From Kordia algicida OT-1 (GTDB lineage Bacteria > Bacteroidota > Bacteroidia > Flavobacteriales > Flavobacteriaceae), in assembly GCF_000154725.1 (NCBI RefSeq), contig NZ_DS544873.1:4824649-4888648 (forward strand): a stretch of 64,000 bases of DNA. Direction: 5' to 3'. This document shows positions 23,644 through 33,087 of this stretch, piece after piece. The notes beneath the pieces were generated by a model. The model had not been told where the DNA came from, made no database searches, and saw only the letters and a program-made list of their open reading frames with translations. The position numbers and the translations under genes are program-made. Position 1 is the stretch's first letter, and the number at the start of each line of letters is the position of its first letter.

Positions 23644-23907
23644 ATGAAAAAAAAGAACTTAAAAACCAACGGATTAAAATTAAACAAAAGAGCAATCTCA
23701 AACTTAAAATTAGGAACACTCACTGGTGGTGGAACAAACTCCTGTTTTCAGTATGCTGATACAAGATGTGCGGTAACGATAGGATGTAATTATACAGATA
23801 CCTGTCCGCCAACAAATGGTTGTCCACCTCAAACAAATGGTTGTCCGCCTCAAACAGATGGTTGTCCTTTCATTTCACAATCTTGTCCTGTAAACGGAAT
23901 CTGCTAA
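23644..23907 (+). CDS. Class I lanthipeptide-type precursor with Cys/Pro repeats
   Basis: 87 residues. The leader is MKKKNLKTNGLKLNKRAISN followed by LKLGTLTGGG, the Lys/Asn-rich leader with a Gly-Gly exit typical of Bacteroidota class I lanthipeptide precursors. The core holds nine cysteines plus many Thr and Ser residues, including three near-identical turns of the type NGCPPQT. A TACTTTTA box lies at 23598-23605, and a strong terminator follows 24 bases after the stop, so it is a single-gene unit. No LanB, LanC or transporter gene is visible nearby. Whether it is modified at all is unknown. Confidence 0.75.
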   Translation: MKKKNLKTNGLKLNKRAISNLKLGTLTGGGTNSCFQYADTRCAVTIGCNYTDTCPPTNGCPPQTNGCPPQTDGCPFISQSCPVNGIC

Positions 23908-23931
23908 AAAAAACAATCGCAAATACATTAC

Positions 23932-23969
23932 AAAACGATCATTAAAAGCAATTTTAATGATCGTTTTTT
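23932..23969 (+). terminator. Intrinsic terminator of the peptide gene
   Basis: Perfect 16-bp stem around AAAACGATCATTAAAA with loop GCAA, then a T run. Confidence 0.93.
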
Positions 23970-24005
23970 ATATCAAATTCAAAAATTAAACTACGTACAC
24001 CATAT

Positions 24006-24073
24006 TTTGAGAAACTCAAAAACAACTTTCAACAAAAAATAAAATAAATCCGTCATATAAAATTGTAGTTTTG
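24006..24073 (+). promoter_or_regulatory. LytTR-type operator and promoter of the sensor kinase gene
   Basis: Direct repeats TTTGAG (24006) and TTTCAA (24027), 21 bases apart, with AACTCAAA in the spacer. The -7 box TAGTTTTG starts at 24066, 34 bases after the second repeat. The same layout occurs at 27863, 32006 and 32186. No -33 TTTG is present, as expected for a promoter that needs an activator. It supports autoregulation of the two-component system. Confidence 0.7.
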
Positions 24074-24093
24074 GAAGTTATAACTCGATACAA

Positions 24094-27033
24094 TTGGTAA
24101 AAAAATTACACTGTTTATTAGTATTACTTGCCTTCTGTGCTGTGTACGGACAACATCCAATCTACACGCAGTTTTCAGAAAAAGACGATCTTCCCGATAT
24201 TGAATTTTACAATATGACGGAAGATAGTAAAGGATTTATTTGGCTTGCCGCCGATAAAGGATTTTATCGTTACGACGGAAATCAATTCAAACTCTACACC
24301 AACAAAGAAAAACGCGGATTTTCAGTTTTTGAACCCAAAGAAGATCACATAGGACGCGTTTGGTGCTGCAATATCTCAGGACAATATTTTTATGCAGAAG
24401 ATGATAAACTAACGATGTTTATTGACTTAAGTCAAGAAATTCGTTGGCAACTCGGAAGCTTTCTGGTTACCAAAAAACATCTATTAGTATTTGCATCTCA
24501 AGTAGTTTATAAAATATCTTTAGAAACAAAAAAAATAGAACAACGCATAAAACTTACGGATGGTTTACTAGGAAATCCATATCAATACGAAGATGAAATA
24601 TTCATCACAACAAACAATAGTATTTTGGTTTTAGATTTAGAATTAAATATTCTTAAAAAAATTACCTCAGAAGCCATTCATAATGATTTAGAAAACAGAA
24701 GTCTTGGACGAACAATCATAAACGGATACAAAGGAAAAACCTATCTAAAATTTACGGATCAAAAAAACGAATCAAACCTGTATTTATTTGACGTAAACAC
24801 TGGGCAATATGACAAAGTAGAACTTGAAGAAGAATTGCGTAAAAGTCATTTGGTAACCTTCGATTTTTACAATGACGAAATGTTACTGTCTACGTCTACA
24901 GGACTTTGGCTGTACACGGTGCAACCTGATGGGAAAATTGTATACAAAAATAAATATTTTGATAATGAATACGCTTCTAGAGTTATTGTAGATAAAAGTG
25001 AAAACTATTGGTTAACAACGCTGCGAAATGGAGTATTTGTAATTCCAAACATAAACAATTACAGTTTTGACTTCCCAAAAGAAATTAAAGACATCAAATG
25101 CATTGAAAAAATAAACGAAACAACCTTCTTCTTTGGTTCTGCCAACGGAAAAGCAGGGTTTTACAAAATGAAAACCAATTCCATTGAGTGGATTCCATTA
25201 AAAGACAAAACAGCAGTTACAGCCGCTCTTTATGATAAAAATGAGCAAATTCTATACATCAGTCAGCAAAACAGTGCGGTCATCTATGATTTACAAACAA
25301 AAACGCATACACAAAATGCAGTTTTTATAAACAGTCGTAGCATCTCTTACCTAAAGAAAAACACCTTTTTCTTTACCAACTATCGCGGCGCTATCAAAAT
25401 AAATAATGGCAAAGAAGTATCACGAATTGGAACTTTACGTGCATATTTGGGCTTTCACGACACGATCTCCAAAAAAAGTTATGTCTCTTACGTTGATGAT
25501 TTGATAAAATATGATATCGATTTCAACGAAAAAAAAATTCGCTACAAAGGAAAACGAATCAACGCAACGGGAATTACAAAAACAGCCAACGGAATTGTGT
25601 GGGTTTCTACCTTTAAAGATGGGATTTACGGAATAAAAAATGATAGCATTATTGCAAACTATACAGAAGAAAACGGTTTAATTTCCAACTCAACTCACAA
25701 AATAAAAGGAGACAATAACGAACTTTGGATCGTGACCAACAAAGGAATTCAGTTGTTTGACATAGAAACGGAAACCTTTAAAACACTAACAAAAAGAGAT
25801 GGAATCAGTACGTATCTTATCAGTGGAATAATTCCGTTTAAAAACAATGTGGTTTTTGCCACAAACAATGGCGTATTTTCAATTGATCGTAAAACGGTAT
25901 TTAACAAAACAGTAAAACCAGAAATTTACTTTACGGGAATTCAAATCAACGAAAAAGATACTTTACTTCAAGACAAATATGAATTGCCACACTATCAAAA
26001 TGCAATAAAAATAAGCTTCAATTCCAACGGTTTTCGATCAAAAGAGCACATTCGCTATTACAGTCGCTTACTAGGTTTTAATGATGATTGGATTGCGGTT
26101 GATGAAGGTATCGATTTTGTAAAATACAACAGTTTGCCTGTCGGAAACTACACGTTTCAAGTAAAAGCAGCTTCTAGCTCTTTGGCAGGTGAATCTGAAA
26201 TTACTGCTATTAAAATTGCCATAAAAAGTCCGTTTTGGAAACGCACTTGGTTTATAACAAGTATGGTAATTGCTAGTTTACTTCTTGTAATCTTTTACTA
26301 TAAAAACATTCTTAAAAAACGTGAAAAACAGAAAAATAAAGAATTTGAAAAGTTGGAGCAAGAACGCGAATTGGTCTTTTTAAAACTAGAAAACTTGCGT
26401 TCGCAAATGAATCCGCACTTTATCTTCAATGCGTTAAATTCGATTCAGGAATACATCATTCTCAACAAAAAAAATCTGGCAAGTGATTATTTGGGAAAAT
26501 TTGCCGATTTAATTCGCACCTATCTCAATCACAGTAACAAAGGAGTTATTTCTTTACAAGATGAAATAGATTGTTTGGAAATGTACTTAGAACTAGAAAA
26601 ACTTCGTTTTGAAGACAAGCTCAACTATAGCATAAAAATTGACAATGAAGTTGATTCGGAAGCGATTTCCATTCCTACGATGCTCATTCAGCCATATGTT
26701 GAAAATGCACTAAAACACGGATTATTACACAAAAAAGATAACAGGGAACTGAGTATTACTCTTGAAACTTCTCAAGAAAACGACACCATTACTTGTACCA
26801 TTGAAGACAATGGTATTGGGCGAGAAAAAGCATTGGCAATCAAACAAAAGAAAGACAAAATGCACCAATCTTTTGGAACGCAAGCAACACAAGATCGCTT
26901 GGATTTGCTCAACTACGGAAAAGAAAAACAAATAGGCGTTTCCATTGAAGACTTACACGATCACACAACGCAACAAGCCAACGGAACAAAAGTGATTATC
27001 ACCATTCCAATTACCAAAATAAAAAACAACTAA
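24094..27033 (+). CDS. LytS-type sensor histidine kinase with beta-propeller sensor
   Basis: 979 residues. I take the TTG at 24094 as start: it gives an intact signal peptide (VKKLHCLLVLLAFCAVYGQ), no ATG fits, and the predicted transcription start is only about 14 bases upstream. The periplasmic part has repeated two-component-propeller motifs (GFIWLAADKGFYRYDG, WVSTFKDGIYGI, LWIVTNKGIQLFD) and a Y_Y_Y domain near residue 650. A single membrane helix (TSMVIASLLLVIFYY) precedes a LytS-type kinase with the phospho-accepting His near 775 in QMNPHFIFNALNSIQ and an ATPase domain (PYVENALKHG, EDNGIGR). Its stop overlaps the regulator start (TAATG). Confidence 0.94.
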   Translation: MVKKLHCLLVLLAFCAVYGQHPIYTQFSEKDDLPDIEFYNMTEDSKGFIWLAADKGFYRYDGNQFKLYTNKEKRGFSVFEPKEDHIGRVWCCNISGQYFYAEDDKLTMFIDLSQEIRWQLGSFLVTKKHLLVFASQVVYKISLETKKIEQRIKLTDGLLGNPYQYEDEIFITTNNSILVLDLELNILKKITSEAIHNDLENRSLGRTIINGYKGKTYLKFTDQKNESNLYLFDVNTGQYDKVELEEELRKSHLVTFDFYNDEMLLSTSTGLWLYTVQPDGKIVYKNKYFDNEYASRVIVDKSENYWLTTLRNGVFVIPNINNYSFDFPKEIKDIKCIEKINETTFFFGSANGKAGFYKMKTNSIEWIPLKDKTAVTAALYDKNEQILYISQQNSAVIYDLQTKTHTQNAVFINSRSISYLKKNTFFFTNYRGAIKINNGKEVSRIGTLRAYLGFHDTISKKSYVSYVDDLIKYDIDFNEKKIRYKGKRINATGITKTANGIVWVSTFKDGIYGIKNDSIIANYTEENGLISNSTHKIKGDNNELWIVTNKGIQLFDIETETFKTLTKRDGISTYLISGIIPFKNNVVFATNNGVFSIDRKTVFNKTVKPEIYFTGIQINEKDTLLQDKYELPHYQNAIKISFNSNGFRSKEHIRYYSRLLGFNDDWIAVDEGIDFVKYNSLPVGNYTFQVKAASSSLAGESEITAIKIAIKSPFWKRTWFITSMVIASLLLVIFYYKNILKKREKQKNKEFEKLEQERELVFLKLENLRSQMNPHFIFNALNSIQEYIILNKKNLASDYLGKFADLIRTYLNHSNKGVISLQDEIDCLEMYLELEKLRFEDKLNYSIKIDNEVDSEAISIPTMLIQPYVENALKHGLLHKKDNRELSITLETSQENDTITCTIEDNGIGREKALAIKQKKDKMHQSFGTQATQDRLDLLNYGKEKQIGVSIEDLHDHTTQQANGTKVIITIPITKIKNN

Positions 27034-27785
27034 TGAAAGTAATTATCATAGACGATGAACGAAAAGCACGGAATTTGCTCCATGTCTTAATAGCTGAAAA
27101 TTGCCCAAAAATCACAGAAATATTTGAAGCAGAAGATTTACTTTCGGGCGTAGCACTCATCAAAAAAGAACAACCACAAATAGTATTTCTAGACATCGAA
27201 ATGCCACAACATTCTGGCTTAGAAATTGCAAGCTTTATAGAAAAAGACAACTTCAATTTCGAAATCATCTTTACTACTGCATACAGCGAATATGCTATAA
27301 AAGCATTTCAACTTTCTGCAATCGATTACCTGCTAAAACCTGTACGCGCAACGCAAATACAAGAAGCTGTAGAAAAAGCACTCAAACACATCGGAAAATC
27401 GCAAATAAACAGCAAACTTGAAGAACTCAAAAAAAGTCTGGCTTCTTCCAACTTTAACAAAATTGGATTGCCTTTTTCAGATGGTTTCAAATTTGTAGAC
27501 TTTAACGAGATCATTCTACTAGAAGCTGATGGAATGTATACAAAAATCACAACGGTTAACGATTCGGAAATCTTAGTTAGCAAACCACTAAAACACTTTG
27601 TCTCGTTATTAGAAAACATAAAAACCTTCTACAAACCACATCGTTCGTATCTCATCAATCTCAAATACATCAAAGAATACATCAAAAAAGATGGTGGTTA
27701 CATCATTATGGACAATAACGAAACGGTTTCCATTTCCAAAGACAAAAAAGAGGAATTTCTTGCCATTGTTCAAAACATTGGATAA
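27033..27785 (+). CDS. LytTR-family response regulator
   Basis: 250 residues: a receiver domain with acidic pocket IIIDDER and phospho-acceptor D54 in VFLDIEMP, then a C-terminal LytTR DNA-binding domain (ILLEADGMYTKI, FYKPHRSYLINLKYI). LytTR proteins bind two direct repeats about two helical turns apart, which matches the 21-base repeats found upstream of four promoters here. Start and stop overlap with the kinase ties the pair together. Confidence 0.95.
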   Translation: MKVIIIDDERKARNLLHVLIAENCPKITEIFEAEDLLSGVALIKKEQPQIVFLDIEMPQHSGLEIASFIEKDNFNFEIIFTTAYSEYAIKAFQLSAIDYLLKPVRATQIQEAVEKALKHIGKSQINSKLEELKKSLASSNFNKIGLPFSDGFKFVDFNEIILLEADGMYTKITTVNDSEILVSKPLKHFVSLLENIKTFYKPHRSYLINLKYIKEYIKKDGGYIIMDNNETVSISKDKKEEFLAIVQNIG

Positions 27786-27862
27786 GCAATACTTGAAAGA
27801 AAAAACATAATTTCATTTCTCATAAATCGTTAAAAATGTACTTGCGACAAAAACGAAAAAAC

Positions 27863-27929
27863 TTTCAGCAACTCAAAACTAACTTTCAGAAGACAGAACA
27901 TTACATAGATAATTAGCAAGATACTTTTG
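27863..27929 (+). promoter_or_regulatory. LytTR-type operator and promoter of the beta-helix surface protein gene
   Basis: Exact direct repeat ACTTTCAG at 27861 and 27882 (21 bases apart) with CAACTCAAA between. The -7 box TACTTTTG starts at 27922, 33 bases after the second repeat, and the gene starts 26 bases further on. Confidence 0.78.
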
Positions 27930-27955
27930 CCTTCATAAACTATAAATTATACATA

Positions 27956-30900
27956 ATGAAGACAAAAGTTTTTTCCCTATTTCTCTTTGTAATTAGTATC
28001 TCATTAGCGCAAGTTCCTACGAACGGACTCACGCATGAATACCTATTTACAAACGGAAGCTACAACACTACTGTCGGATCTAACAATCTTACACAATCTG
28101 GAGGAACAATCGCAACAACAGCCGATCGTGAAGGCGCTCCTACAAACGCGATAGAATTAAACAATTCTTTCCTATTTACTCCACAACTAGCTTCTGGGTT
28201 TAGAGTCTCAGTAAGTTTTTGGATTAAAACAAATACCAACGATTCCTTTGATCGTGCTATACTAGATTACCATGCGCGAAACGTACGTATTCCAACCAAT
28301 ACGGAAACTGGCTTCTTTCTTACCTTAGATGATGGAAAAATTGATCTCAGTGCCAACTATCGATACGGATATAACTTTATGCAAACATCTGAAACTACTT
28401 TCTATACAGGAAATCACGGTTTTCGAAGTAATGCGTCTGTTGCAGACAATAACTGGCATCACATCACACTAACAATAGATACAGGAGCGACAAACGGAAA
28501 CATCTTCTATCAATACAACTTGTATATTGATGGTGTGTTAGACAATACACTTACAAGAACCAGCACGCCACCTGCACAATCAGGACAAATATATGCGATC
28601 CTATTTCCTAATGAACGTGTAACGATAGGAAACAGTAAAAATGGAAATCTAATTTCCGATCGTGTTTACGGCGATACCATCGATGATATTCGTTGGTACA
28701 ACAGAACCTTAAGTCTTTCTGAAGTAAATGCACTCTACAATGATGTTGACAGTTGTATTCCAACACAACTTACAGCAACAAATGTACAATCAAATGCTGT
28801 CGACTTATCATGGATGGCAACGCCCGATCAAACTTCTTGGGATGTTTCATACACAACACCAGGAAGCAGTCCAGATTCAGGAACAATCGTTAGCAATGTA
28901 GGCGCAAGTCCATACACACTCACAGGATTATCTCCAACAACTTCATACGACATATACATTAGAAGTACTTGTAACGGAATTATCTCAGGTTGGTCAAATG
29001 TGGCAGCTATAACCACTACTGCTGTACAAGAAAGAATTTACGTTGACATTGATGCTACAGGAGCAAACGATGGATCTAGTTGGGCAAATGCATACACAAG
29101 TCTAAACGATGCACTCACAGGAATTGCTACAGGAACAGAACGTACCATTTGGGTAGCAGAAGGAACGTACATTCCAACAACGACAAATGCTGATGCCAGA
29201 ACAGCAACATTTTCCATTCCAACATTGGTAAAACTCTATGGAGGATTCAACGGAACAGAAACCATGCTGTCACAGCGTAATCCTTTGTTACATATTGCAA
29301 AACTTAGTGGCGACATAATGGGCGACGATAATGGAATACTGTTACCGACAGAAAGTACGCGAGCAGACAATGTGTTTCATGTAGTATCCTTACGAGAAAA
29401 CATGACAGATGTAATCATTGATGGTGTCACAATTGCGGATGGAAATGCTTTAGGTGGAGGAACGCTTACTGGACCAGTAGCAAACCGTGTAAACTATGGA
29501 ACTGGTGGCGCGGTCTATGTGGCATTGGTAAACACTTCCGAAAGGGTAGAAGCTACATTTAACAACTGTATCTTAGAAAATAACTCAGGGCAAAACGGCG
29601 CTGTCTATGGAAATTATGTACAAAACCCATCGGCTTCTGTTAGTTATCAAGTAGATTTCATAAACTCAAAAATTCGTTCCAACTATGGAAGTCTTAGTTC
29701 TATAGTGTTATATTTTGGGCAAAACGGAGCGACGAGTTCAGGTAAAATTGTCAACTGTCTCTTTACAAACAATACAACGCCAGTTTCAAGAAATATTGGT
29801 TCTTGTTTGTGGATCGGTCGTTTAAACGGACCTGCAAGTGTAGTACAGCTAGATGTTGTCAATACTACATTTACCGACAATTCTGGGCAAAGCGGACAAG
29901 TAATTACAACTACGGGCGCGCCAGAATTATCAAACATTAATAATAGTATTATCTATGGCAATGGAAGCAATACGCCTTTAGATTTCAATACTGCGCCATT
30001 TCCGGCAGTAAACAATTCTATTGTAGAAGGTGGACAAGAAGGCGGAATCAACCTCGATCCTTTATTTACAAGTGCTACCGACTTTACATTGCAGTTAACT
30101 TCGCCAGCAATCAACGCAGGAAACAATGCATTTGTACCTGTAGATATTACAGAAGATATTGATGGTAATCAACGTATTTTTGACACTACTGTAGATTTGG
30201 GAGCATATGAATTTAATGCCAATTGTGGAGAATTTTTCAATGTTGTGCTTACGCCAAGTGCAACAGTTGCCACAGAAGCAACACTTACGTGGGATCATCC
30301 ATTCGATACAGGAGATACTTTCGATTTAGTATATGTAGTGAGTGGAATGCCCATCGGAAACGGAACAGCTATCAACGGAATCACTGGAAACAGTCAACTG
30401 CTCACAGGATTAAGTTCTAACTTTTACGATATTTATCTAAGAGCAAACTGCTCAGGAACACCAAGTGCTTATGAATTGTACACTGTTGGTTTTAAAGTGC
30501 CAATTTTTGTAAATGCAAATGCTACAGGCGCAAACAATGGAAGCGGATGGAACAATGCATACACATCACTAGAAACTGCTTTAGCGGCGGCAAGCGACGA
30601 CGATACTATTTGGATTGCTAGCGGAACGTACAAACCAGCAGGAACAAGTCGTTTAAATTCTTTTATAATAGCCAATAATAACCTAACGATTTACGGCGGA
30701 TTCAACGGAACTGAAACACAACTTTCGGAACGTGATTTTACAGTAAATGAAACGATCCTTTCGGGAGATTTAAACGATGATGACACAGTAAACACATTTA
30801 ATGGTGGCGGAAGAAACGAAAATCTATATCACGTTGTAGAAATAACAGGACAAAACGTTACTCTTGATGGAATTGTGGTTTCTGGCGGACAAGCAACGGC

Positions 30901-31945
30901 AAGTTCTGGTGACGATCGTCTTGGCGCAGGAATCTACAAAGATGCAGGTGTAGATAATTTAACCATAATGAACAGTACATTTCGAAACAATGTTTCCGTT
31001 GGCGGTTCAGGAATTTTTGGACGCTTTGCCACAGGAGAAACGATTACTGTTTCAAATAATATATTTCACGATAATTTAGCAAACTATGGAGCAGGTTTTT
31101 ACACACTCAACACGAATAACGTGAATTACACAGTAACGTTAGCAAATAGTTTATTCTATAATAACACTACAAGAAATTCCTCAACCAATTTAGGATTTAC
31201 GGGAAGTTCTATTTGGTTGCGATCCAATAGCTCTGGCGGAACATTAACAACTACTGTAACTAATTGCACATTTGCAGACAATACAGACGTTGGTACAGAA
31301 TCATCGTCATCCAATAGAGGAACATTCAGTGTAAGTCGTGGTTCTACAGGAACGCATAATGTAGTAGTTGCTAATTCAATTTTTTACGGAAACAGAGGTG
31401 CTGGTGGTGCAATTACACGAGCAGTAACCAAAGGTCATACTGTAATTGCTAATTCTGTATCAGTGAATTATGCAATTGATGAAAATAACTTTGCCGGATT
31501 GCCAGCAGGAACTAACAGATCAAATGCCAATCCTATGTTTGTAGATGCTGCTTCGGGCGATTATTCGCTTTCGGCTTCTTCTCCAGCAATTAATACAGGT
31601 AATAATGCAGATGTAATCGGTACAACAGATGTGATAAATAACAATCGTATTGTTGACACTACAGTAGATTTAGGAGCGTATGAATATGATGCTACATTGA
31701 GTGTTGAAGAAGTGTCATTAGCAAGCGACAGTCTTGTAATATATCCAAATCCAACCTCAGGAATTATCAATATTCAAACAAAAACAAATATAAAAAATGT
31801 TGCAATTTTCAATATATTAGGGAAAAAAGTATTACAGGCAACTACTGCTACAATAGATGTTTCTCAACTTTCAGGAGGAATGTACGTAATGAAAATTACA
31901 ACTGAAAACGAAACACAAATCACCAAACGCTTTATCAAGCAATAA
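27956..31945 (+). CDS. Large T9SS-secreted protein: LamG, FnIII and two beta-helix regions
   Basis: 1329 residues. Signal peptide MKTKVFSLFLFVISISLAQ; a concanavalin/LamG-like domain to about residue 265 (VSFWIKTNTNDSF, WHHITLTIDTG, DDIRWYNRTLS); an FnIII domain (VDLSWMATPDQTSWDVSY); then two copies of a right-handed parallel beta-helix module, each opening 'YVDIDATGANDGSSWANAYT' or 'FVNANATGANNGSGWNNAYT' and closing with a choice-of-anchor-like 'RIxDTTVDLGAYE'. A T9SS type A sorting domain ends the chain (SLVIYPNPTSGIINIQ, SGGMYVMKI, KRFIKQ). It is probably a surface adhesin or polysaccharide-active protein. Its operator suggests control by the adjacent LytTR regulator. Confidence 0.9.
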   Translation: MKTKVFSLFLFVISISLAQVPTNGLTHEYLFTNGSYNTTVGSNNLTQSGGTIATTADREGAPTNAIELNNSFLFTPQLASGFRVSVSFWIKTNTNDSFDRAILDYHARNVRIPTNTETGFFLTLDDGKIDLSANYRYGYNFMQTSETTFYTGNHGFRSNASVADNNWHHITLTIDTGATNGNIFYQYNLYIDGVLDNTLTRTSTPPAQSGQIYAILFPNERVTIGNSKNGNLISDRVYGDTIDDIRWYNRTLSLSEVNALYNDVDSCIPTQLTATNVQSNAVDLSWMATPDQTSWDVSYTTPGSSPDSGTIVSNVGASPYTLTGLSPTTSYDIYIRSTCNGIISGWSNVAAITTTAVQERIYVDIDATGANDGSSWANAYTSLNDALTGIATGTERTIWVAEGTYIPTTTNADARTATFSIPTLVKLYGGFNGTETMLSQRNPLLHIAKLSGDIMGDDNGILLPTESTRADNVFHVVSLRENMTDVIIDGVTIADGNALGGGTLTGPVANRVNYGTGGAVYVALVNTSERVEATFNNCILENNSGQNGAVYGNYVQNPSASVSYQVDFINSKIRSNYGSLSSIVLYFGQNGATSSGKIVNCLFTNNTTPVSRNIGSCLWIGRLNGPASVVQLDVVNTTFTDNSGQSGQVITTTGAPELSNINNSIIYGNGSNTPLDFNTAPFPAVNNSIVEGGQEGGINLDPLFTSATDFTLQLTSPAINAGNNAFVPVDITEDIDGNQRIFDTTVDLGAYEFNANCGEFFNVVLTPSATVATEATLTWDHPFDTGDTFDLVYVVSGMPIGNGTAINGITGNSQLLTGLSSNFYDIYLRANCSGTPSAYELYTVGFKVPIFVNANATGANNGSGWNNAYTSLETALAAASDDDTIWIASGTYKPAGTSRLNSFIIANNNLTIYGGFNGTETQLSERDFTVNETILSGDLNDDDTVNTFNGGGRNENLYHVVEITGQNVTLDGIVVSGGQATASSGDDRLGAGIYKDAGVDNLTIMNSTFRNNVSVGGSGIFGRFATGETITVSNNIFHDNLANYGAGFYTLNTNNVNYTVTLANSLFYNNTTRNSSTNLGFTGSSIWLRSNSSGGTLTTTVTNCTFADNTDVGTESSSSNRGTFSVSRGSTGTHNVVVANSIFYGNRGAGGAITRAVTKGHTVIANSVSVNYAIDENNFAGLPAGTNRSNANPMFVDAASGDYSLSASSPAINTGNNADVIGTTDVINNNRIVDTTVDLGAYEYDATLSVEEVSLASDSLVIYPNPTSGIINIQTKTNIKNVAIFNILGKKVLQATTATIDVSQLSGGMYVMKITTENETQITKRFIKQ

Positions 31946-31966
31946 TTTATAGTTTACGTTATTGTA

Positions 31967-32003
31967 TAAATCCTGTAAGTTTTCATGCTTACAGGATTTT
32001 TTT
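31967..32003 (+). terminator. Intrinsic terminator of the beta-helix protein gene
   Basis: 12-bp stem AAATCCTGTAAG / CTTACAGGATTT with loop TTTTCATG and T run. Confidence 0.92.
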
Positions 32004-32005
32004 GC

Positions 32006-32072
32006 TTTAGCAGTCAAGAATACACTTTCAGAAATTAGCGTATAATAGGAATTAATCTAAAATGTAGCTTTG
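32006..32072 (+). promoter_or_regulatory. Fourth LytTR-type operator with promoter, no clear gene attached
   Basis: TTTAG (32006) then CAGTCAAGAATACAC then TTTCAG (32026-32031). This matches the 27863 site except for one missing base in the first half-site. The -7 box TAGCTTTG is at 32065, again 34 bases after the second half-site. Confidence 0.5.
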
Positions 32073-32078
32073 TCACCC

Positions 32079-32172
32079 AATAAGTAAAAGAAATAATACA
32101 ATACATTACCCAAACTAGCAATTTGCTAGCAGAATTTGATCGGATTGTAAAACGGCTTCAATCCGATCATTT
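32079..32172 (+). ncRNA. Possible short transcript with two hairpins
   Basis: Starts where the 32065 promoter would initiate. It contains hairpin CTAGCA/TGCTAG (32115-32129) and a perfect 11-bp hairpin TGATCGGATTG / CAATCCGATCA (32137-32169). There is no ATG-led ORF. The second hairpin has only a weak T tail, so termination is uncertain. An ATG-less open frame from 32084, or from a TTG at 32123, to 32221 is the alternative reading. Confidence 0.3.
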
Positions 32173-32185
32173 CTCAAAAAATACT

Positions 32186-32253
32186 TTTCAGAAACTCAAA
32201 TTGGCATTTCAGAAAATATGAAAAGATTAAAATCTACCAAGTATTTATATTTA
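32186..32253 (+). promoter_or_regulatory. LytTR-type operator and promoter of the small exported protein gene
   Basis: Direct repeats TTTCAG at 32186 and 32207 (21 bases apart), AAACTCAAA between, and -7 box TATATTTA at 32246, 34 bases after the second repeat. Transcription would start near 32260, which excludes the in-frame ATG at 32218. Confidence 0.72.
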
Positions 32254-32280
32254 TTCCTGAAACAAAAAATAGAAGCTTTT

Positions 32281-32601
32281 ATGAAATTAACAATCATTGC
32301 CATTAGTTTGCTTTCGGTACTTTCATTCACATCGATCTCAGAAACGACTACAACCGTACAAGAAACAACAGAAGCAGTTTATGGAAGCAGTTTTTCGCTT
32401 ATCAATGACACTAAAAATAAAGTTTCCATCTACACAGGAACTGGTTACGTATCCTTAAACAAAGGAAGTAAAACCAGCATTTCATGTAAAGTTGGAAAAA
32501 CGGTGCATTGGGCAAACAAAGGAAAAAAAGGCGACGTCATTTTCAAAATCACCAGTGATATGTGTGGCGAAACGGTCAAACTGTCTAAAGTGATGGATTA
32601 A
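32281..32601 (+). CDS. Small exported protein of unknown function
   Basis: 106 residues from the ATG at 32281, with signal peptide MKLTIIAISLLSVLSFTSIS. The mature part (about 85 residues) is beta-rich with two cysteines (TSISCKVGKT and TSDMCGETVK) that may form a disulfide. An earlier in-frame ATG at 32218 lies upstream of the predicted promoter -7 box and would bury the signal. It carries the same LytTR-type operator as the two-component system and the large surface protein, so it is probably expressed with them. Confidence 0.75.
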   Translation: MKLTIIAISLLSVLSFTSISETTTTVQETTEAVYGSSFSLINDTKNKVSIYTGTGYVSLNKGSKTSISCKVGKTVHWANKGKKGDVIFKITSDMCGETVKLSKVMD

Positions 32602-32699
32602 TTAAAAAAAAGGGGTAATTTTTTAAAAGTTAAAATCACAAAACTAACCAACCAGAAATCTAGTTTTTTAAAAGGAAAGAAAGTATTACTTTCTTAGTG

Positions 32700-32734
32700 T
32701 AAAGAGAATTTTCGAAAGAAGGTTCTCTTTTTTT
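32700..32734 (+). terminator. Intrinsic terminator after the small exported protein gene
   Basis: Stem AAAGAGAA / TTCTCTTT with a long loop and a T run, about 100 bases after the stop. Confidence 0.65.
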
Positions 32735-32778
32735 ATGAGATCGTTTTTCTTAGCTTAGATGTTATAAGAATAGTTGAA

Positions 32779-33087
32779 ATGGGAAGAATTCTATGCAAAA
32801 AACACGGAACACAAGCATTCTATGAAATGTGTGTGCATTGTTATGCGGATGTAACTCGCGGTGTAAAATCGAAAGTACATACGATTGCGATATTAAACTT
32901 AAAAATATGCGATGATTGTTATCGTGAACATACTTTTAAAGAAATTGAAAACATTGAGCTAGATGAGGTTTTGAAACTATCAGATGATAAAGTCAATACG
33001 ATTGAAATGTTAATATTTCAAAAATATAACTCGATTGAAAAAAAAGGAATTTGTATAAAATGCTACGAAGACATTAATATCCTTTAA
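32779..33087 (+). CDS. Small protein with four Cys pairs, possible zinc binder
   Basis: 102 residues, no signal peptide. Metal-ligand-like pairs are CKKH (residues 6-9), CVHC (18-21), CDDC (44-47) and CIKC (97-100), which could form two zinc sites. I do not recognise the family. It ends about 325 bases before a convergent gene and has no partner on its strand. Confidence 0.6.
   Translation: MGRILCKKHGTQAFYEMCVHCYADVTRGVKSKVHTIAILNLKICDDCYREHTFKEIENIELDEVLKLSDDKVNTIEMLIFQKYNSIEKKGICIKCYEDINIL

Follow-up and report, generated by a model that had tools for sequence, protein, structure and literature searches.

A direct-repeat operator predicted for a LytTR two-component system of Kordia algicida and other Flavobacteriaceae

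A LytTR two-component locus with a recurring promoter element

We analyzed a stretch of 64,000 nucleotides (the window, in whose coordinates the locus is described) from the 5.03 Mb genome of the marine bacterium Kordia algicida OT-1 (G000), in which a sensor histidine kinase and a LytTR response regulator are encoded ahead of a cargo protein of the type IX secretion system (T9SS) and a small exported protein (SP). The promoters of the kinase, the T9SS gene and SP as well as an orphan promoter share a direct repeat with the consensus kTTYAGMAnnTCAAAnnnnnnTTTCAGMA. We consider this repeat very likely to be the operator of the regulator, which would form an autoregulated two-component system together with the kinase and act as an activator. 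The features of the locus are compiled in Table 1.

Table 1. Genes, operators and promoter elements of the locus (window coordinates)
Feature	Position	Strand	Description
Operator S1, before kinase	24006..24035	+	half-sites TTTGAG 24006, TTTCAA 24027
-7 box, kinase promoter	24066..24073	+	TAGTTTTG; aligned in 7 Kordia genomes
Sensor histidine kinase	24094..27033	+	979 aa, predicted TTG start
Response regulator (P0002)	27033..27785	+	250 aa, Response_reg + LytTR; presumed operator binder
Operator S2, before T9SS gene	27863..27892	+	half-sites TTTCAG 27863 and 27884
-7 box, T9SS gene promoter	27922..27929	+	TACTTTTG
T9SS cargo protein	27956..31945	+	1329 aa; LamG-like, fn3, choice-of-anchor Q domain, Por_Secre_tail
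Terminator-like hairpin 3' of T9SS gene	31968..31999	+	
Operator S4, orphan promoter	32005..32034	+	half-sites CTTTAG 32005, TTTCAG 32026
-7 box, orphan promoter	32065..32072	+	TAGCTTTG
Hairpin ending putative ~100-nt orphan transcript	32137..32169	+	TGATCGGATTG/CAATCCGATCA
Operator S3, before SP	32186..32215	+	half-sites TTTCAG 32186 and 32207
-7 box, SP promoter	32246..32253	+	TATATTTA
Small exported protein (SP)	32281..32601	+	106 aa
Terminator-like hairpin 3' of SP gene	32701..32730	+	

A comparison with Pfam assigns Reg_prop, Y_Y_Y and His_kinase domains (PF06580, 83.8 bits) to the kinase, with HATPase_c slightly under the cut-off, and its predicted TTG start at 24094 is kept in all seven aligned Kordia genomes. 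The regulator, which an earlier note on this DNA had placed between the first two operators, contains a receiver domain (PF00072, 77.3 bits, E 1.3e-21) and a LytTR domain (PF04397, 63.7 bits, E 2e-17), both over the cut-off, and its gene shares one overlapping base with that of the kinase. With a receiver-LytTR regulator, an adjoining kinase and a direct repeat of about 21 bases upstream of the core promoter, the pair has the features of a LytTR two-component system. SP had no Pfam match when queried with the sequence from 32284.

The operators share a 21-base period and a fixed distance to the -7 box

The original prediction had described pairs of TTTCAG at all four promoters. Such pairs are exact at S2 and S3, whereas S1 reads TTTGAG-AAACTCAAAAACAAC-TTTCAA and the left half of S4 is CTTTAG. 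Likewise, a 15-base stretch starting [AC]AACTCAAA between the half-sites is present at S2 and S3 and missing from S4. The half-sites of S1 to S3 do lie 21 bases apart, while a start of S4 at 32006 with one base missing had to be revised: with S4 left out of the matrix, the score peaks at 32005 (21.1 bits; five other starts at most -16.9), from where the site reads CTTTAG-CAGTCAAGAATACAC-TTTCAG with a period of 21. This register keeps the 21-base period at all four sites and rules out a one-base deletion in S4. Two direct repeats two helical turns apart match the known operators of the LytTR regulators YpdB and AgrA, as had been proposed.

The four -7 boxes lie where they had been predicted, but direct reading gives 32–33 bases instead of 33–34 from the right half-site to the box. 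We surveyed the promoter architecture of 69 sites (20 from the Kordia locus, 31 from other genera and 18 from other Kordia promoters), with S4 counted apart. Among the 57 boxed sites, 53 have a -7 box that begins 38 or 39 bases from the right half-site, and S4 has it at 39. A box at 37–40 occurred in 53/69 sites, compared with a mean of 4.0 and a largest value of 11 in shuffled downstream sequence; 12/69 sites had no box by the search pattern. As expected from the earlier note, TTTG at -33 was absent from all 58 boxed sites, a number that includes S4. When the sigma-A box is taken at -12 to -5, as an excerpt of a study on Flavobacterium psychrophilum indicates (PMC9723704), the operator centre falls by our arithmetic near -58, close to the -60 of AgrA.

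Since the direction of control is unreadable from sequence, the regulator might also repress these promoters. We regard this as very unlikely, because the sites are placed ahead of the core promoter and keep a fixed distance to the -7 box, because the absence of TTTG at -33 is what activator-dependent promoters would show, and because AgrA occupies the same position on the agr promoters, according to the part of PMC4227749 that describes them.

The full motif is specific within the genome

The specificity of the motif depends on how much of it is used. Within the window, TTTCAG-N14-16-TTTCAG is seen three times where 0.08 would be expected, once (9281) outside S1–S4. In the genome, the bare TTTCAG-N15-TTTCAG pair has 14 matches against 6 for the reversed control, so that it is unspecific alone and too loose as a motif. 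The longer pattern TTTCAGNAACTCAAAN6TTTCAG, with up to three mismatches, gave 11 matches against 5 in the control. A consensus pattern, which was composed after the sites had been seen, gave five matches with up to three mismatches against 0.29 expected, four of which are S1–S4.

We further employed two models, whose E-values are rough owing to a shortened calibration. Model R1 had S1–S3 in its training set and S4 held out. Its top four matches in 5.03 Mb are S2 (E 1.3e-13), S1 (2.0e-11), S3 (2.5e-8) and the held-out S4 (1.4e-7). Next come the leader-peptide sites 554390 (E 1.8e-4) and 3955511 (E 0.023), with 53474 (E 0.0017) ranking between them. Model R2 uses sequence only, was built from 31 non-Kordia sites (alignment A3) and was run on 18 genomes. 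A3 omits the sites of L148, L150, L159 and L160, the kinase site of L151, the upper pair of L141 and the low-scoring L142 -1793 and L154 +757. In the genome of the window, R2 returned seven matches at E<=0.02, among them all of S1–S4: S3 (2.0e-6, the best in the genome), S4 (3.7e-5), S2 (4.7e-5) and S1 (4.3e-4). The other three are the leader-peptide promoters 554377 and 3955511 and a site at 2657351 with no gene found behind it. On the window alone, S1–S4 score 23.0–30.4 bits and the next match 9.2. In the genome scan suggested by the earlier note, the full motif is thus not equally frequent at random places, be it by R1, R2 or the consensus pattern.

The operator accompanies close orthologues of the regulator

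The regulator is 92–95% identical to four Kordia records and has orthologues at 86–93% identity in six Kordia congeners. Seven of the 11 Kordia genomes in our set carry an orthologue; the other four (G002, G005, G006 and G010) hold no relative above 55% identity. All seven genomes with an orthologue possess an operator before the kinase and another directly after the regulator gene, and these sites trained the matrix. In alignments of the Kordia upstream regions the conserved parts are the two half-sites, nTCAAA behind the left half and the -7 box. The post-regulator operator of G008 precedes a small leader peptide, not the T9SS gene. An operator stands before SP in four of the six genomes holding both SP and the regulator.

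Scanning named genomes, we found regulators at 65–79% identity in Flavobacterium, Winogradskyella, Polaribacter, Lutibacter, Bizionia, Ulvibacter, Dokdonia, Tenacibaculum and others. We examined 49 of 79 loci, leaving out four from Kordia and 26 others that were distant or short, with a matrix trained on Kordia sites only and a search zone of 350 bases after the regulator stop. Among non-Kordia loci with a regulator of at least 65% identity, 20 of 22 have a post-regulator site (17.2–35.0 bits), compared with 0/27 loci at 61% or less, where the best score was 13.7 bits. The reverse strand reached at most 9.9 bits across the 49 loci. Upstream of the kinase, a site of at least 15 bits is present at 13 of 19 testable close loci and at 0/26 testable distant ones, and Ulvibacter has a further kinase-upstream site of 30.1 bits beyond the scanned stretch. 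The repeats are thus conserved in orthologous regions, both within Kordia and in other Flavobacteriaceae genera.

These data also bear on the idea that the repeats are a promoter-sequence family without a dedicated regulator, arising from A/T-rich upstream elements or promoter duplication. The sequence is indeed A/T-rich, and S1, S2 and S3 could stem from one duplicated promoter. The stretch between operator and -7 box, however, varies while the half-sites are fixed across genera, and at every one of the 20 close loci the true matrix scores above the best of 200 column permutations as well as above the reverse strand. Such an origin therefore has next to no likelihood in our estimation.

Pfam matches for two non-Kordia genes behind a post-regulator site show a T9SS sorting tail in both and a LamG-like domain in one. 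In Flavobacterium profundi, a second gene that looks kinase-like by eye is preceded by an operator, and two more operators stand before exported-looking genes nearby. The kinase promoter of Flavobacteriaceae bacterium RhTr2 (L141 6937-6985) has three tandem half-sites, each 21 apart.

In Kordia the predicted regulon extends to leader peptides and a second porU copy

Over the 11 Kordia genomes, R1 yielded 22 rows beyond the main locus at E<=0.0022, 21 of which (all but G001:C2:70296) correspond to the 20 regions that we inspected. In 11 regions a small double-glycine leader peptide follows the operator at 87–122 bases. The remaining ones comprise two second porU copies, three SP promoters or remnants, two other secreted-looking proteins and two positions within genes. 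The local regulon of cell-surface proteins envisaged originally is therefore too narrow, as leader peptides elsewhere on the Kordia chromosome also carry the operator.

When 14 of the peptides were compared with NCBIfam, nine matched the class I lanthipeptide leader NF038153 at E<=0.1 and five had no match. Eight of the nine matches are below the cut-off, and the one above it belongs to a kinase-adjacent peptide without operator; 'lanthipeptide-like' is therefore only a lead. A LanB-type dehydratase has one match in each of the 11 Kordia genomes.

A second, diverged porU copy occurs only in G007 (L133) and G009 (L121) among the 11 genomes, both times with an operator, and NCBIfam identifies the copy of G007 as PorU. 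By eye, it adjoins a gldA-like gene in both. The ordinary porU is ruled out as a target, with no operator before it in 11/11 genomes.

Just upstream of the kinase, the window encodes an 87-aa double-glycine leader peptide (23644-23907) with a Cys-rich repetitive core of CPPQTNG repeats. One to three related copies are found near the same spot at other Kordia loci, with none seen in G004. A matrix scan found no operator before the peptide at 23644-23907.

Operators at two leader-peptide loci are missing where the regulator is missing

On a Kordia tree of two proteins, the presence of the regulator needs three changes. These are probably losses, given that other genera have orthologues and that the SP gene or a remnant of its promoter persists in G002, G005 and G010; one gain and two losses may serve as an alternative. 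In the Kordia genomes without the regulator, the sole R1 matches at E<=0.01 are three at an SP promoter or its remnant. SP is retained in G005, with a degenerate operator (22.2 bits) whose right half reads TTTAAA. With R2 at E<=0.02 these genomes gave no match in G002 and G005, one in G010 (E 0.018) and three in G006, two of which adjoin a paralogous LytTR gene.

We compared two leader-peptide loci across the 11 genomes. At the YbaB locus, an operator of at least 17.8 bits is present in five of seven genomes with the regulator and in 0/4 without. The second locus (L227-L237) contains a conserved AprA-like winged-helix/methyltransferase protein of 519 aa, with one match in each Kordia genome and double-glycine leader peptides just upstream in 8/11; here the operator is found in 4/7 genomes with the regulator and 0/4 without. 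Pooled at 14 bits or more, this amounts to 9/14 against 0/8 (Fisher 0.0055, not corrected for phylogeny). At the two loci compared, predicted leader-peptide operators are thus missing where the regulator is missing. Leader peptides without an operator persist in G005 (YbaB locus) and in G006 and G010 (AprA-like locus).

Kordia genomes hold 20–62 LytTR matches each, 27 of them in G000, and paralogous LytTR loci have related 21-base repeats before their own genes, so that another LytTR protein could bind some of the sites. In addition, several leader-peptide sites carry nTTGAAA in place of nTCAAA. The operators might accordingly be bound by other or several LytTR paralogues, with P0002 serving part of them and the leader-peptide promoters under another regulator. 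We consider this improbable, as the operators track the P0002 orthologue at the loci next to the regulator gene as well as at the leader-peptide loci, and as genomes without P0002 are left with the three SP-promoter or remnant matches of R1.

Proposed mechanism of regulation

Comparison of sequences establishes the sites, their spacing, the position of the -7 box, their conservation and the genome-wide specificity of the full motif. From knowledge of the family and from the position of the sites, we infer binding by this regulator, activation and positive feedback; a dependence on phosphorylation is presumed as well. In the mechanism that we propose, the propeller-type kinase would sense a periplasmic or outside signal and phosphorylate the regulator. 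A regulator dimer would then bind the two half-sites, which lie two helical turns apart on one face of the DNA with their centre near -58, and recruit sigma-A polymerase to promoters with a -7 box but without a -33 element. Its predicted targets are the kinase-regulator operon itself, which would result in positive feedback, the adjacent T9SS-exported LamG/beta-helix protein and the small exported protein, and in Kordia also the double-glycine leader peptides at unlinked places.

Several observations weigh against assigning the operator to this regulator throughout. Taken singly, neither leader-peptide locus is significant (Fisher 0.06 for YbaB and 0.19 for the AprA-like locus). G004 holds the regulator but has no site at either of them, G003 has a YbaB-locus site (17.8 bits) without a recognised peptide, and G006 shows a 12.6-bit match at the YbaB locus although it is without the regulator. 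SP stands without an operator in G007 and G009, which are sisters, and behind a weak one in G004 (18.1 bits). Outside Kordia, two Dokdonia loci are without a post-regulator site despite 66–67% regulator identity, L159 has a 17.1-bit match within a gene, and column-permuted matrices attained 15.5 bits behind the regulator at one close locus and 17.6 bits ahead of the kinase at another. The sixth R1 match (53474) sits within a gene and is chance-like. Finally, the training sites of R2 were located with the Kordia matrix, so that its sequences are independent while the choice of motif is not.

Comparison with known LytTR systems

Direct-repeat LytTR operators with a 21-base period are already known from YpdB and HdrR, and the repeat period of AgrA is of the same kind. 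The operator, promoter geometry and regulon of a LytTR system in Bacteroidota appear to be new; among the matches listed in the open-access literature, titles and starts of abstracts contained no operator for a Bacteroidota LytTR protein.

An oligonucleotide table gives the site of YpdB from Escherichia coli as GGCATTTCAT-N11-GGCATTTCAT (PMC4847170). As far as this table goes, the Kordia system resembles YpdA/YpdB in a direct repeat with a TTTCA core and a 21-base period and in the pairing of a LytTR regulator with a kinase. The target of YpdA/YpdB is named as the YhjX transporter in an excerpt of PMC5552118, whereas the Kordia sensor is of the Reg_prop/Y_Y_Y type and its predicted targets are T9SS cargo and leader peptides. 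The Kordia left half-site further differs by its nTCAAA extension, and the promoters have a Bacteroidota -7 box. For AgrA of Staphylococcus aureus, the available portion of PMC4227749 describes direct repeats centred near -60 at promoters with suboptimal spacers, a position similar to the -58 found here. In contrast to AgrC/AgrA, no peptide ligand is established for the Kordia kinase, no search having been aimed at agrB/agrD-like genes.

The streptococcal LytTR Regulatory Systems (LRS) HdrRM and BrsRM are autoregulated via 9-bp repeats 12 bp apart and control bacteriocin genes, as outlined in an excerpt of PMC6193735; to that extent they share the 21-base period and the autoregulation predicted here. 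The Kordia system, however, has a receiver domain and a histidine kinase in place of a membrane inhibitor, which rules out the LRS class. ComDE and Blp are grouped with the streptococcal LytTR systems as peptide-type relatives, and the peptide beside the Kordia kinase suggests a quorum-sensing analogy of this kind. Compared with these and with HdrRM-type systems, double-glycine peptides lie beside the locus in Kordia but, by a strict leader pattern, at none of 22 non-Kordia loci, of which 19 reach past the kinase. This weakens kinase-adjacent leader peptides as a general ligand. Of the four regulator-free Kordia genomes, the three inspected for such peptides (G002, G005 and G010) also retain them at this place.

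Bacteroides hybrid two-component systems (HTCS) combine a kinase carrying propeller repeats and Y_Y_Y with a fused AraC-type output. The Kordia kinase shares the propeller repeats and the Y_Y_Y region, but its output is a separate LytTR regulator. The HTCS class is ruled out, since Pfam shows neither a receiver nor an AraC-type domain in the 979-aa kinase.

An operator that is shared across the family and keeps its distance to the promoter allows the targets of such systems to be predicted from sequence, and it provides reporter constructs for the search for the kinase ligand. One predicted regulon joins T9SS cargo, the porU copy of two genomes and lanthipeptide-like peptides. It is conceivable, albeit doubtful, that the system is a Bacteroidota counterpart of Gram-positive peptide-induction circuits, in which the pair would switch on itself, T9SS surface cargo and dispersed lanthipeptide-like double-glycine peptides by way of the one operator, and a processed peptide from this family would be the inducer.

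At the paralogous LytTR loci L048 and L052, a hairpin ending GGCATTTTTG, recognised by eye, occupies the position of the -7 box behind the regulator; one sequence may hence act as terminator and promoter box.

The orphan promoter and remnants of SP promoters

The orphan promoter is the weakest member of the predicted regulon and has no conserved product. Counterparts of S4 score 37.3 bits in G003 and a weak 16.3 in G001. The stem of the hairpin that would end its transcript is present in aligned relatives and absent from the terminator-like matches of a hairpin search, and the stretch 3' of the promoter is otherwise unconserved. No ATG-started frame of at least 8 aa precedes the hairpin, and Rfam gave no match at the gathering score in 23900-32800. 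A conserved small RNA is thus unsupported as a candidate, with operator and -7 box clear only in G003 and weak in G001.

The orphan promoter may be a relic, because SP promoters without an SP gene occur in G008, G002 and G010. In G008, SP was not found, yet an operator persists together with leader and terminator sequence resembling that of SP. What look like deletion scars at L118 (G002), L124 (G010) and L045 near 7488, kinase-forward (G008), consist of promoter, 5' leader and terminator-like end without an SP frame. Between the peptides and the SP remnant, L118 and L124 are devoid of a kinase, regulator or T9SS gene.

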